Source: Phycisphaerales bacterium PN19_bin_20
Lineage (GTDB): Bacteria > Planctomycetota > Phycisphaerae > Phycisphaerales > UBA1924
Direction of reading: 5' to 3'
Assembly: GCA_021173225.1 (NCBI GenBank)
Contig: JAJOLK010000008.1
Location: 1-64,000 of the forward strand
Length of the DNA stretch: 64,000 bases
Of this stretch, positions 42,999 to 48,714 are shown piece by piece; within the stretch, counting starts at the first letter, position 1, and every line of letters begins with the position of its first letter. Under the pieces are notes generated by a model. The model worked only from the letters and a program-made list of their open reading frames with translations. It was not told the DNA's origin and made no database searches. A program made the position numbers and the translations under genes.

Positions 42999-43382
42999 AT
43001 GCCCTACCAGACTCAGAGCGCCGACACCCCCGTCAGCTACGTCGTCCGCGCGTCCTGCGGCAGCGCCTCGCTGCGAACCAGCTACGTTCAGTGGCTTGTC
43101 GGCTCCGCACAGCAGTTCGGGCACATGGCCGAGGTGCTCGGCGCGGGGGCGCTGACCGCCGAGGTCGTCACTCTTGACCGCCCGGAGGGTGCACAGGTGG
43201 ATGAAACCTGGATTGCCGAGGCTCGGTACACCTTCCGCAACCGGGCGGCTTTGGAGAGTTATTTGGCAGAACACGCCCCGAGACTGCGCGTGGACGGCTT
43301 GGCCAAGTTTGGGCCGCAGGGCTCGGTCGGAAGCGTGCTGTTTGCGCGTTTCACTGGCGAACTCGTGCGAGCCCTCCCCTGA
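42999..43382 (+). CDS. DUF4286 family protein
   Basis: 127 residues from the ATG at 42999. The central part W-I-A-E-A-R-Y-T-F-R-N-R-A-A-L-E-S-Y-L-A-E-H-A-P-R-L-R matches DUF4286, a small ferredoxin-like alpha/beta domain of unknown function. No signal peptide. It lies between divergent sigma genes but shares no overlap with them. Confidence 0.75.
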   Translation: MPYQTQSADTPVSYVVRASCGSASLRTSYVQWLVGSAQQFGHMAEVLGAGALTAEVVTLDRPEGAQVDETWIAEARYTFRNRAALESYLAEHAPRLRVDGLAKFGPQGSVGSVLFARFTGELVRALP

Positions 43383-43516
43383 TCGAACTCCAACAGTTTG
43401 ATCAGCAGCGAACCGACCGCGCCAACCCGATAGACTTGGCGCTCTCGTGGCGGACGGGGCCAGCCGCCCGCTTGGTCGGATTGAACAAGTCCCCAGATTG
43501 ACATGCAGGCACCCAA

Positions 43517-44164
43517 TTGGATGGCCCGAAGTTGGATCAACGCACCGACGAACAACTACTGGACGCGTACCGGCGCGGGGAGAGCCCCGTGCTGGAGGTC
43601 TTGGTGCGCCGCCACCACGACGACCTGCTGCGGTTCCTTTATCGCCTGACGGGTTCCCGGACGACCGCTGAGGACGTCTTTCAAGAGGCGTTCTTGCAGG
43701 TCCACCTGTCAGCTGGGACCTTCGATGCTTCTCGGCGGTTCAAACCGTGGCTTTTTACGATCGCAGCGAACAAAGCTCGCGACTTCCTGCGTAAGAATGC
43801 GCGCCGGCGCACGCTCGATCTTGACGCCCCCGTTGGCCGTGGTCGTTCAGGTGGTGACGGCGGTGAGGCCACGTTCGTGGACCTCATGGCCCTTGACGGG
43901 CTGACTCCTCCCGAGGTCTTTGACGAAACACAGCGCGATGCGAAGGTTCAACAGGCGATTTCTTCCATGCCCTTGCTGATGCGCGAGATCCTGCTGTTGG
44001 CCTACTTCCAGCGCATGAGCTACAGCCAGATTGCCGACGCGCTCAACATCCCGCTGGGCACGGTCAAGAGCCGTCTGCATTCGGCCGTCGCGGCCTTCGC
44101 CAAGGCCTGGAACCAGGTCAACCCGCCCGAGGCTACCTCGACCAACGGCTCCGCAGAACCCTGA
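43517..44164 (+). CDS. ECF-type RNA polymerase sigma factor
   Basis: 215 residues if begun at the TTG at 43517; TTG at 43532 is an alternative, since no ATG fits. Region 2 (L-R-F-L-Y-R-L-T-G-S-R-T-T-A-E-D-V-F-Q-E-A-F-L-Q-V-H...F-K-P-W-L-F-T-I-A-A-N-K-A-R-D) and region 4 (L-L-M-R-E-I-L-L-L-A-Y-F-Q-R-M-S-Y-S-Q-I-A-D-A-L-N-I-P-L-G-T-V-K-S-R) are clear. It precedes a membrane protein with a pseudopilin-like outer domain by 78 bases, which probably controls it. Confidence 0.93.
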   Translation: MDGPKLDQRTDEQLLDAYRRGESPVLEVLVRRHHDDLLRFLYRLTGSRTTAEDVFQEAFLQVHLSAGTFDASRRFKPWLFTIAANKARDFLRKNARRRTLDLDAPVGRGRSGGDGGEATFVDLMALDGLTPPEVFDETQRDAKVQQAISSMPLLMREILLLAYFQRMSYSQIADALNIPLGTVKSRLHSAVAAFAKAWNQVNPPEATSTNGSAEP

Positions 44165-44242
44165 TCCCAGCTGCTCACGCTTCACGACTCACCAGCCCCA
44201 AGCCGCATCTCTCGCGACCGAAGTCTGAAACCGAACCGCATT

Positions 44243-45835
44243 ATGAATCTCAGGCCCACGCAACCAGTCCCCTCCGACACCATGCCGCGCCAACGCGCGG
44301 AGCACGCGTCGGGTATCGAGCCAGCGACGCTCTGCCCGGCTAGCGCCGCGGCGGTGGACGGGCTGATGGAAAATGGGCTCAGCGCGGAAGCACTTGGCGG
44401 TGCTCTTGCCGGGGGCACCAGCGCTGAGGGGTCTTCTGGCCGCACGACGCCTGCACCAAGTGAGGTTGAGGCAGGGGCACAGGGGTTGGCGGAAGGTGGG
44501 GCTCAGGGCGCACATACGCTCGTTGCCGCCAAGCTGCTGCGCTCGCTTGCGTGTCCGAAGGTCTGGTGCTGCCGCGAGCAGATGACGGCGCGAACGTTGG
44601 CGCTGGTCGGCAACGCGCGGGCCGTCCAAGAGACGCACGCCCAGCGCCTTCACGAGGTTGCCAACAAAAGCTTGGTCGGAACCCTCCGCACGCCCGGCGA
44701 ACCCTGGACCGAAGATGGCCCTTGGCACGCCGCCGGCGTGATCGATCTGTGTGATGACGACGCCGACGCGCTCGAGTCGCTCGTGCAGTGTGGGTGGGAC
44801 TCGCAGCGTGTGCCCTCGGGCGTTCGCGTCCGTGCGGCTCGCATAGCCACGCTTCTGGGCGGGCTTGATGCGCACAGGTCGGCCGCCGCGCAGCAGAGCG
44901 ATACGTCTGATGCGCTCGACGGGCGCGACGCGCTGGACTTCACGCGTCACGCGGCGCTGGCGAACCAGCAGGCCGTGATGATCAGCGCGACGCTGGCGCG
45001 GGTTCGTGCCGCGGGCCCGATACCAGAGAGCGCCGGGCCTCGGGTTCATGAGCGCACGGGGGATCGTTCGGTCGAGCGTCTCGGTCGGCTTCCGCGCGGG
45101 CTGCGCGTTGCTGACCTTGCCGCCGTTGCCGCGCTGCTGGTGGTTGGCGTGGCTGTGCTGTGGCCAACAGTCTCAGCGGGTCGCCAACGTTCGATGCAGG
45201 TAGCTGGTGCGGGCCGTTTCTCGGGCCTTGGCCAGGCCATCGACCAGTACGCCGGTGACTTCCGTGGCAGCCTGCCGGTCGCGACCGCCTCGCTTGCGGG
45301 CACGCAGTGGTGGAATGTCGGGACGCCTGCGCAGTCCAACTCGGCCAATCTTTTCACGCTTCGTCGGACTGGTTATTCGACGCTCGAGCAGCTCAGCAGC
45401 CCGGGCAACGCACTGGCGCGGGGCATGCAGATAGCGGCAGATGCCTGGGACTGGCCGAGCTTTGAGGCCGTCAGCTACTCGTATCAGAACCAGTTTGCGG
45501 CCGAGCGTGCGTGCATGAATACGCGTTCGGCGCGGTTTGTGGTGCTGGCTGATCGCTCGCCGGTGGTGGCCCGGGCCCTACGCGGCGAGCGAGTGGTCTA
45601 CTTCAACGAAAACTCGCAGAACTTCGCCGGTCGCGGGCAGAACATGCTTCGATCTGACGCGAGCGTTCAGTGGATGACCACCCCGTTTACCGAGACCGGT
45701 GACAACATCTGGCTGCCGCGCAAGGTCGAGGCACTGCTCCACTGTGCTGAGCGGCTGGCGCGGGGTGAGCGGCATTGCGAGCCGCTGCGCGGGGTTGAGT
45801 CTCCGGACAAGAACGACGCGTTCCTTTGCCCGTGA
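44243..45835 (+). CDS. Single-pass membrane protein with pseudopilin-like outer domain, probable regulator of the ECF sigma factor
   Basis: 530 residues. About 285 N-terminal residues are cytosolic and lack a recognised domain. One membrane helix (about 290-312, V-A-D-L-A-A-V-A-A-L-L-V-V-G-V-A-V-L-W) is followed by G-R-Q-R-S-M-Q...F-S-G-L-G-Q-A-I-D-Q-Y-A-G-D-F-R-G-S-L, matching the region after the packing helix of planctomycete prepilin-like proteins (N-N-L-R-Q-L-G...Y-A-N-D-x-x-G), and by G-R-G-Q-N-M-L-R-S-D-A-S-V-Q-W-M, matching their C-terminal D-G motif. The G-F-T-L-I-E-L signal is absent. Position after an ECF sigma and topology suggest an anti-sigma or sensor. Confidence 0.65.
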   Translation: MNLRPTQPVPSDTMPRQRAEHASGIEPATLCPASAAAVDGLMENGLSAEALGGALAGGTSAEGSSGRTTPAPSEVEAGAQGLAEGGAQGAHTLVAAKLLRSLACPKVWCCREQMTARTLALVGNARAVQETHAQRLHEVANKSLVGTLRTPGEPWTEDGPWHAAGVIDLCDDDADALESLVQCGWDSQRVPSGVRVRAARIATLLGGLDAHRSAAAQQSDTSDALDGRDALDFTRHAALANQQAVMISATLARVRAAGPIPESAGPRVHERTGDRSVERLGRLPRGLRVADLAAVAALLVVGVAVLWPTVSAGRQRSMQVAGAGRFSGLGQAIDQYAGDFRGSLPVATASLAGTQWWNVGTPAQSNSANLFTLRRTGYSTLEQLSSPGNALARGMQIAADAWDWPSFEAVSYSYQNQFAAERACMNTRSARFVVLADRSPVVARALRGERVVYFNENSQNFAGRGQNMLRSDASVQWMTTPFTETGDNIWLPRKVEALLHCAERLARGERHCEPLRGVESPDKNDAFLCP

Positions 45836-45964
45836 GTGCCCGACGCGGGCCAGCGGTTGGACTCGCAGCAGTTTGAGGCCTACCATCTCGACCCGTCGCG
45901 GCGAGCGATTCTTTAGCCCATTGGGCGTAAAGGTCGGCCCGGCGACAGGTCACGGAGTTTCTCG

Positions 45965-46273
45965 ATGCAGCGCAAGAACAAGCCGCACAAGGGACTGCTG
46001 AAGCGCGTGCGGATAACCAAGACGGGCTTGGTCCGTCACAAGAGCGCCAACAGCAAGCACTTGAAGAGCGGCAAGAGCCCCGGCCGCCTGCGCAAGCTGC
46101 GCAAGGACCGTCTGGTCAGCAACGCCGTAGCCAAGGCCCTCGAACGTCAGCTGCACCGTCGCCTTCGCGGGCGTGACCAGAGCCGCGCGACGACGCGCAA
46201 GAGCCCGAACCCCGCCGAGCGCAAGGCGACTCAGGCCGCCAAGCTCGCGCTTCGTGGCGGCGGCATCAAGTAA
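45965..46273 (+). CDS. rpmI: 50S ribosomal protein bL35
   Basis: 102 residues from ATG at 45965. It has K-P-H-K-G-L-L-K-R-V-R-I-T-K-T-G-L-V-R and the later basic block (K-S-P-G-R-L-R-K-L-R-K-D-R-L-V-S) of bL35. The usual protein is about 65 residues; here a basic C-terminal extension (R-Q-L-H-R-R-L-R-G-R-D...) adds roughly 35. It is followed by rplT, as in other bacteria; infC, normally upstream, is not present here. Confidence 0.9.
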   Translation: MQRKNKPHKGLLKRVRITKTGLVRHKSANSKHLKSGKSPGRLRKLRKDRLVSNAVAKALERQLHRRLRGRDQSRATTRKSPNPAERKATQAAKLALRGGGIK

Positions 46274-46283
46274 ATTTGTCTCA

Positions 46284-46322
46284 CAGGGTTTGCTCGCAGG
46301 GTTTGCTCGCAGGGTTTGCTCG
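46284..46322. repeat. Three exact 13-base repeats in the rpmI-rplT spacer
   Basis: CAGGGTTTGCTCG occurs three times in succession (46284-46296, 46297-46309, 46310-46322), just after the rpmI stop. Total length 39 bases. Confidence 0.92.
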
Positions 46323-46465
46323 TTTGAACCATCCCGGCCCGAGGCGGACATCGCCCCGGACCGGCTTCGCCCCCGGCCCCGGCCGCTGGGGCTGTTCGCA
46401 CCGCCCGTCGGGCCCCGCAAGCAGTGCCGCCGGCACTCCCCGCACGGACCGTCAAGGAGAGGCCT

Positions 46466-47311
46466 ATGCCTCGCGTTCGCAAGGGTGCAGCTCGCACCCA
46501 GGCTCGTAAGCGTCTGCTCCGTCTGGCCCGTGGCTTCTACGGCGCCCGCAGCAAGCACAAGTGGAAGGCCAAAGTCACGCTGGTCAAGGCTGGCGTGTAC
46601 AAGTACCGCCATCGCCGCCTGATCAAGCGTGACATGCGCGGGTTGTGGATCACCCGCCTGACCGCCGCGTGCAAGATGCGCGGCACGCGCTACAGCCTGT
46701 TCATCAACGGGCTGCGGCTGGCTGGCATCATCATGAACCGCAAGATGCTCAGTGAGCTGGCGATCCATGACCCCAAGGCCTTTGACGTAGTGCTCGACAT
46801 CGCGATGAAGGCCGGCAAGGCCCACGCCAAAAGCGGCGGCACCAACGTCATCAAGACCGGCATCATCTTCGGCGGGCAGACCATCAACAGCGGTTCGTCT
46901 GACAACATCATCGACATTGAGGGCATCGGCCCGGCCTTCGCCAAGAAGCTCGCCGCCGCGGGCGTCCGCTCGATCGGTCAACTCCGTGAGGCCGGCAAGA
47001 CCGGTGCGGGGCGCGAGCAGCTCGCGACCAAGAGCGGCCTGAAGGCCGAGAGCGTTACCAAGTGGGCCTTTGCGTCCGACTTCTTCCGCCTCACGGGCAT
47101 GGATGGGAACCAGGCCGAGCTGCTGGTCGCCAACGGGATCAAGACCGTCGGCACCCTGGCCAAGCAGGAGGCCGCGTCGCTCTCGAAGAAGCTCATCGCT
47201 GGCAACAAGGACGCCGTCGGCAAGCTGATCGCGGCGCGCACGCCCAGCGGCATCGAGCTGGGCCAGTGGATCAATCAGGCCAAGGGCCTGCCGGCCGTCG
47301 TCGCCGAGTGA
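46466..47311 (+). CDS. rplT: 50S ribosomal protein bL20 fused to a DUF4332-like helix-hairpin-helix domain
   Basis: 281 residues from the ATG at 46466, preceded by AAGGAG. Residues 1 to about 118 are bL20 (M-P-R-V-R-K-G-A-A-R-T-Q-A-R-K-R-L, R-H-R-R-L-I-K-R-D-M-R-G-L-W-I-T-R, N-R-K-M-L-S-E-L-A). Linker about 119-150. Residues 151-281 resemble DUF4332: I-E-G-I-G-P-A-F-A-K-K-L, then K-W-A-F-A-S-D-F-F-R-L-T-G-M-D and V-G-T-L-A-K-Q-E-A. DUF4332 has two helix-hairpin-helix units, usually nucleic-acid-binding. bL20 binds 23S rRNA early in assembly and represses its own operon. The frame is continuous. Confidence 0.92.
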   Translation: MPRVRKGAARTQARKRLLRLARGFYGARSKHKWKAKVTLVKAGVYKYRHRRLIKRDMRGLWITRLTAACKMRGTRYSLFINGLRLAGIIMNRKMLSELAIHDPKAFDVVLDIAMKAGKAHAKSGGTNVIKTGIIFGGQTINSGSSDNIIDIEGIGPAFAKKLAAAGVRSIGQLREAGKTGAGREQLATKSGLKAESVTKWAFASDFFRLTGMDGNQAELLVANGIKTVGTLAKQEAASLSKKLIAGNKDAVGKLIAARTPSGIELGQWINQAKGLPAVVAE

Positions 47312-47337
47312 TCGCTGAGATTCCGAATTGAAGCTTC

Positions 47338-47368
47338 AAGGGGCGGGCCAAAGGGCTCGCCCCTTTTT
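47338..47368 (+). terminator. Rho-independent terminator after rplT
   Basis: A GGGGCGGGCC/GGGCTCGCCCC hairpin closed by AAAG and followed by TTTTT, 27 bases past the rplT stop. It ends the rpmI-rplT transcript. The rest of the 316-base gap to dapF shows nothing recognisable. Confidence 0.88.
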
Positions 47369-47628
47369 CATTGTGTCCCGCGATTTATCCTGTTCAAACG
47401 CACTCTCGCTGGATGTCATGGTTCTGGGTACCGGCGTGCTCCGCGTGAGTCTTGGCAATCTCGCCCCGCAATCGCTTCGCGTCTGCAAGTTTGTGCGAAA
47501 GTTGGCATCACGCCCCTTCACCTTTTTTGCAGACATGGGCACGATCAACGTGCGTCCCACGCTCGCGGCGAGCCGCCACCTGCACGCGGTCGTCACCGGC
47601 TCCCGGCCAATCCCGCTACGCTCGGCTC

Positions 47629-48714
47629 GTGCTTCCCTTCTTCAAGCTCCAAGGCCTGGGCAACGACTACGTCTACCTCGACGCCGTCACGCGCCCTGCG
47701 ATCGAGCACAGCTTTGATTTGCCAACACTCTCGCGCGTCCTCAGTGACCGGCACCGCGGCATCGGAAGCGACGGGCTGATCGTCGTCGCGCATCCGACCG
47801 CCGAGGGCAAGGCCGCGAACGCGCACGCACGCATGCGGATCTTCAACGCCGACGGCAGCGAGGCTCAGATGTGCGGCAACGGCGTCCGCTGCGTCGCCAA
47901 GCTCCTGCACGACCATCTCAAGCTCACCGCCAACCCATTGCGTGTCCAGACCGGTGCGGGCGTACTCACGATTGACTACCGCGTCAGCGCCGGCGTGCTG
48001 ATCGAGGCGACCGTTGACATGGGCCCGCCCACGCTTGAGATGCCGCGGATACCAGTTTCAAGCTCAGGGCTCTCGTTTACAGACCACCCGCACGAGAGCC
48101 ACCTGCACCTGCCCGGCGCGATCGTGACAGCGACGTTTGTCAGCATGGGCAACCCGCACGCGGTGATCTTCATGAGCGCCGCCGACCGAGAGACCCCCAC
48201 GCACCGTCGTGCCGGCATCCGCGACGGCGCGCAGCAGCCTCTCTCGCCCGAGCTGGCCAGTGCCGCGATGCACAAGCTTGGTCCGCAGATCGAGCGTCAC
48301 CCGGCGTTTCCGCAGCGCACCAACGCCCACTTTGTTGTGATCGATGCGCCCAACCACGCCACCATGTTTACCTGGGAGCGCGGCAGCGGTGCCACGCGCG
48401 CGTGCGGCACCGGCGCGTGCGCCGTCCTGGTCGCGGGCGTGCTCACCGGCCGCCTCGCACGCACCGCCAGGCTCACACTGCCCGGCGGCGAGCTGAAGAT
48501 CCGCTGGCCCACCCGCACCGGACGCGTGCTTATGACCGGCCCGGCAGAGCTGAGCTTCGTCGGCACACTTGATGACGCCGTGCTCGCGACTTCCCGGGTC
48601 GTGCCTGTGCGCGTCATGCCTGCGAGTGCCCAGCCGCTGCGGCCAGCCGCGCCGCGCACTACAAAGACCAAGCGCACGCCTCGATCCGCCAAGCCGACAC
48701 GGAGCCGCGCATGA
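47629..48714 (+). CDS. dapF: Diaminopimelate epimerase
   Basis: 361 residues from the GTG at 47629, the first codon that gives the family's start (V-L-P-F-F-K-L-Q-G-L-G-N-D-Y). The two catalytic cysteines appear in M-C-G-N-G-V-R-C and A-C-G-T-G-A-C-A. DapF converts LL- to meso-diaminopimelate for lysine and peptidoglycan. The C-terminus extends with a basic tail (T-K-T-K-R-T-P-R-S-A-K-P-T-R-S-R-A) not needed for catalysis. The ATG of the GNAT gene overlaps its TGA, and an M20 peptidase follows; they form a probable operon. Confidence 0.96.
   Translation: MLPFFKLQGLGNDYVYLDAVTRPAIEHSFDLPTLSRVLSDRHRGIGSDGLIVVAHPTAEGKAANAHARMRIFNADGSEAQMCGNGVRCVAKLLHDHLKLTANPLRVQTGAGVLTIDYRVSAGVLIEATVDMGPPTLEMPRIPVSSSGLSFTDHPHESHLHLPGAIVTATFVSMGNPHAVIFMSAADRETPTHRRAGIRDGAQQPLSPELASAAMHKLGPQIERHPAFPQRTNAHFVVIDAPNHATMFTWERGSGATRACGTGACAVLVAGVLTGRLARTARLTLPGGELKIRWPTRTGRVLMTGPAELSFVGTLDDAVLATSRVVPVRVMPASAQPLRPAAPRTTKTKRTPRSAKPTRSRA

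Follow-up and report, generated by a model that had tools for sequence, protein, structure and literature searches.

The rpmI-rplT region of the window (the whole 64,000-nt stretch of DNA analysed, from Phycisphaerales bacterium PN19_bin_20) carries a gene for ribosomal protein bL20 that continues in frame into a DUF4332 domain. Its features are as follows.

45965-46273, plus strand: rpmI, encoding a bL35 of 102 aa with a C-terminal extension (PF01632, 48.9 bits)
46454-46459, plus strand: Shine-Dalgarno-like AAGGAG of the fused gene, 6 nt upstream of the ATG (read from the sequence)
46466-46819, plus strand: bL20 part, residues 1-118 (PF00453, TIGR01032 and bL20 chains of the PDB)
46820-46915, plus strand: linker, residues 119-150 (pLDDT, dN/dS and the length difference between two fused proteins)
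46919-47287, plus strand: DUF4332 (PF14229), two helix-hairpin-helix-like units, residues 152-274 (88 bits; pLDDT 95.3)
47338-47365, plus strand: terminator-like hairpin of 12 pairs with a T-rich tail, 3' of the fused gene (terminator scan)

The fused rplT, which rpmI adjoins, is one uninterrupted, stop-terminated plus-strand frame of 281 codons (46466-47311) whose translation has no internal stop. Residues 3-107 match Ribosomal_L20 (PF00453) with 116.8 bits, the TIGR01032 model is matched with 125 bits, above its cut-off and over the full length of L20, and residues 152-274 match DUF4332 over profile positions 1-121 of 122, at 88 bits, where the cut-off is 23.2. The reading of the frame as bL20 joined to DUF4332, made earlier from the letters alone, is thus borne out, both domains of the single 281-residue product lying above their Pfam cut-offs. 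The added domain is also of the helix-hairpin-helix (HHH) type, as had been proposed, with a Pfam HHH_5 match at residues 148-201, and no obvious internal start signal separates the two parts, the nearest in-frame starts before DUF4332 showing, as read by eye, no obvious Shine-Dalgarno sequence. In its position and stem, the hairpin at 47338-47365 looks like the expected transcript end; the terminator scan gave 3 sites versus 1.7 in shuffled sequences, a count that is not significant alone.

In the 91%-complete source genome, a fragmented draft of 3.1 Mb from an uncultured planctomycete, the fused gene is the sole bL20 gene, no second, plain copy having been found, and the fused frame is also the sole DUF4332 match above cut-off. 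An extended L21 was likewise looked for and rejected, the L21 of this genome being plain (108 aa).

The earlier note had further described both proteins of the operon as enlarged. The bL35 extension is real, but the paired enlargement did not hold up: the same basic extension (RRLRGRDQ...SPSPAERKA) is present in many members of the family that have a plain bL20, with bL35 proteins of 94-123 aa, so that it is not part of the fusion event and a coupled enlargement of bL35 and bL20 can be set aside. In E. coli and B. subtilis, bL20 is known to act as an autorepressor (PMC10931766, PMC6097659). Such autorepression cannot be assumed here, because infC sits on a different contig of the source genome (G000:C40:95886-96143) and not beside rpmI-rplT, and because no Rfam match to a known L20 leader RNA was obtained in 43000-48000 of the window, in a search that covers known families and that lineage-specific leaders could escape. 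The rpmI-rplT spacer, which is poorly conserved within the genus, contains at 46275-46322 a 13-bp tandem repeat, TTTGCTCGCAGGG, in 3.6 copies; the aligned spacers of three other species of the genus show no such repeat.

The same fusion is found in a second, independently assembled species of the genus, Phycisphaerales bacterium Prado162, as a protein of 292 aa that is about 75% identical to the first and that matches L20 with 118.8 bits and DUF4332 with 107.3 bits (Pfam). The linkers of the two proteins differ in length and sequence. A search of Phycisphaerae for the fusion returned these two species among about 500 genomes, the whole-fusion match being confined to them in 200 relatives and in 397 genomes of the class (overlapping sets). 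Prado162 was also the only further fusion found by a short-peptide-pattern search of 84,980 species genomes, which detects close relatives only and in which part of the matched tails was read. The fusion is therefore rare in the Phycisphaerae genomes searched. DUF4332 itself is above cut-off in 16 of 121 genomes, fused in 2 and as a standalone protein of 135-136 aa in the other 14; across 392 genomes of the phylum, the strong matches that were read out are standalone and several weak ones lie within longer frames. A brief look at the ORFs neighbouring standalone DUF4332 genes revealed no clear conserved gene context.

Most other relatives checked have a plain bL20 of about 124 aa, and this is also true of one species of the same genus, G003 (124 aa). 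Another species of the genus, referred to here as G002, has an intermediate form: its bL20 of 156 aa (L034:652-1119) is 80% identical, begins its linker with a homologous stretch (GKSGIKTGIEF) and ends in a lysine/alanine/proline tail, and no DUF4332 match was found in its genome. In a tree of L20 and L35, the two fused species and G002 group together with their branching order unresolved, and the G002 tail may accordingly represent either loss of the domain or a state preceding the fusion. No rpoB was found in the Prado162 genome, which is 55% complete.

Selection on the three parts of the protein was estimated from the two fused sequences only, by pairwise Nei-Gojobori dN/dS with bootstrapping over codons; with dS near 0.6 in GC-rich DNA, these estimates are rough. 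Between the 281-aa and 292-aa proteins, dN/dS is 0.21 (0.11-0.37) for the bL20 part, 0.94 (0.44-2.45) for the linker and 0.45 (CI 0.28-0.73) for DUF4332. As judged from this comparison, the DUF4332 domain is under purifying selection and the linker is without detectable constraint. The value well under 1 for the domain makes it look maintained for a function at the protein level.

The fused domain has nonetheless diverged from its standalone relatives, which match the domain in full length and are about 30-44% identical to it. Eleven positions that are at least 80% conserved in standalone DUF4332 are changed identically in both fused proteins, E160K, L174R, G213D, E221V and D226K among them; because the two proteins have a common ancestor, these shared changes count only once. 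E160K, L174R and D226K add positive charge, and in the two species the fused domain carries a net charge of +5 and 0, for a standalone mean of -2.5 (range -7 to +6). Most of the standalone proteins compared here have two HHH units with both GxG hairpins intact. In the fused domains, hairpin 1 (EGIGP) keeps the canonical GIG in both species, whereas hairpin 2 reads GMD in place of the standalone G-V/I-G, a change that affects half of the canonical nucleic-acid motif. The stretch DFFRL(T/S)GMDGNQAELLVANG is nearly identical between the two species, and hairpin 2, a stretch picked post hoc, is the best conserved of the domain, with a dN/dS of 0.20 (CI 0.07-0.51). This pattern suggests that the second interface of the fused DUF4332 has been remodelled.

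Structure prediction gives a bL20 part, a disordered linker and a confidently folded DUF4332 domain. The AlphaFold model of the DUF4332 domain, built with 31 aligned sequences, has a mean pLDDT of 95.3; that of the full-length fusion, for which few sequences cover the C-terminal half, has a mean pLDDT of 79 and a pTM of 0.39, so that it gives no confident arrangement of bL20 relative to DUF4332. Residues 127-144 of the linker are predicted to be disordered (pLDDT <50). With Foldseek, the full-length model retrieves bL20 chains of many ribosomes from the PDB, and the DUF4332 model has weak matches, none with E <0.001, mostly to HHH-containing proteins (among them Pol theta helicase, NusA, RadA and Pol iota). 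A PDB profile search with the domain also gave weak matches, to HHH motifs of Pol IV, archaeal eL32, NusA and Pol beta, and the second half of the domain weakly matches TIGR01954, the NusA C-terminal repeats.

The fusion is tentatively interpreted as a genuine two-domain ribosomal protein, in which an auxiliary HHH domain tethered to the 50S subunit provides an accessory nucleic-acid contact. This reading falls somewhat short of being probable in itself, and it is favoured over docking of a protein, over a passenger domain and over cleavage of the chain. Its origin would lie in the joining of a standalone DUF4332 gene of 135 aa to the 3' end of rplT via a flexible linker, in an ancestor shared by a few species within one genus; the standalone DUF4332 proteins of the family and phylum support such a source. 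As the fused gene is the only one for bL20, an early-assembly protein of the 50S subunit (PMC10931766), the single product would enter every 50S through its bL20 part. The linker would then display DUF4332 on or near the solvent face. In 50S structures, the C-terminal domain of bL20 faces the solvent side near bL21, and a flexible tail could hence present DUF4332 outside the subunit. There, the domain would most likely serve as an accessory, non-enzymatic contact point for nucleic acid, either rRNA of the subunit or its precursor, or nearby mRNA or DNA. The weak sequence and fold matches to HHH domains of Pol IV, Pol beta, RadA, NusA and archaeal eL32, together with the shared gains of positive charge, speak for nucleic-acid binding, and the modest net charges and weak Foldseek matches speak against it; with a near-neutral domain and a second hairpin that has no GxG, such binding is only plausible. 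It also counts against the preferred explanation that G002, in the same genus, lives without DUF4332.

A less likely reading, though the closest competitor, is that the tethered domain binds no nucleic acid and is a protein-docking module that recruits a factor to the 50S, for instance in transcription-translation coupling or assembly. The likeness of its second half to the NusA C-terminal repeats, weak in sequence and also seen in the fold, would fit this, as would a second hairpin that has lost GxG and is yet the best-conserved (post hoc) stretch; but the NusA matches are weak, the domain has no known partner, and the first hairpin has stayed canonical in both proteins. It appears improbable that DUF4332 is instead a tolerated passenger of a chance fusion, with no ribosomal role and heading for loss. 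Its restriction to two species would fit this, and the homologous linker without a domain in G002 is compatible with easy loss (or with a pre-fusion state), whereas a dN/dS well below 1 and a frame kept over about 25% protein divergence argue for its maintenance. Still harder to credit is post-translational cutting within the linker, yielding a normal bL20 and a free DUF4332 whose expression the fusion would merely couple: although the linker is predicted to be disordered and evolves without detectable constraint, and the source genome has no standalone DUF4332 above cut-off, no conserved cleavage motif was seen and the two linkers differ in both length and sequence. Finally, an assembly, frameshift or sequencing artefact, of which the earlier note had named a frameshift or sequencing error at the junction as a possible undoing of the fusion, has a negligible chance of being the explanation and was rejected, for although both fused genomes are fragmented drafts, that of Prado162 being a metagenome assembly, the frame is open in two independently assembled species at about 75% identity, with a signature of selection, and a terminator-like hairpin directly follows the gene.

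Beyond the accessory contact favoured here, a bolder version can be formulated, which is rather unlikely at this stage. The sole bL20 would be two-headed, and the remodelled and conserved hairpin 2 of DUF4332 would be a new interface through which each large subunit is tied to a specific factor or to a specific nucleic acid, making it an undescribed recruitment platform borne by the ribosome.

HHH and other extra domains on ribosomal proteins are a known theme, and L20 joined to DUF4332 matches none of the catalogued NCBIfam models named below as a whole. Residues 1-118 are an ordinary bL20 (rplT, PF00453/TIGR01032), above both curated cut-offs, but the protein continues for another 163 residues, and none of the bL20 chains in the PDB listing exceeds 170 aa. 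Relative to standalone planctomycete DUF4332 proteins (PF14229), the fused domain differs by its attachment to bL20, its 11 shared substitutions and its altered hairpin 2. Two NCBIfam models, PRK14537 (L20/unknown domain fusion) and NF051450 (L20, sunset domain variant), also describe a bL20 with a C-terminal domain; the fused protein scores far below their cut-offs, at 84.2 of 187 bits and 80.2 of 375 bits, respectively, and in both cases through its L20 part only. Closer in kind are L21 (PRK12278), S2 (PRK12311) and archaeal eL32 (PRK12766), ribosomal proteins with an HHH-like domain, whose added domains are weakly matched here and, for L21 and S2, are presumably HHH domains. The fusion shares with this class an unbroken frame, conserved between two species, but in those cases another ribosomal protein carries the HHH domain. 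In the literature searched, no link between DUF4332 and L20 was found, DUF4332 being met in a gene map only.

The coexistence of fused, linker-only and plain forms means that a ribosomal-protein domain has been caught in the course of being gained (or lost) within one genus. With the free form of the domain known from relatives, this variation makes the role of an HHH domain on the ribosome approachable, a question shared with the L21, S2 and eL32 fusions. C-terminal growth of bL20 is not confined to the fused genus, since in another member of the family bL20 has a low-complexity tail and is 159 aa long (L016:1411-1890, minus strand).
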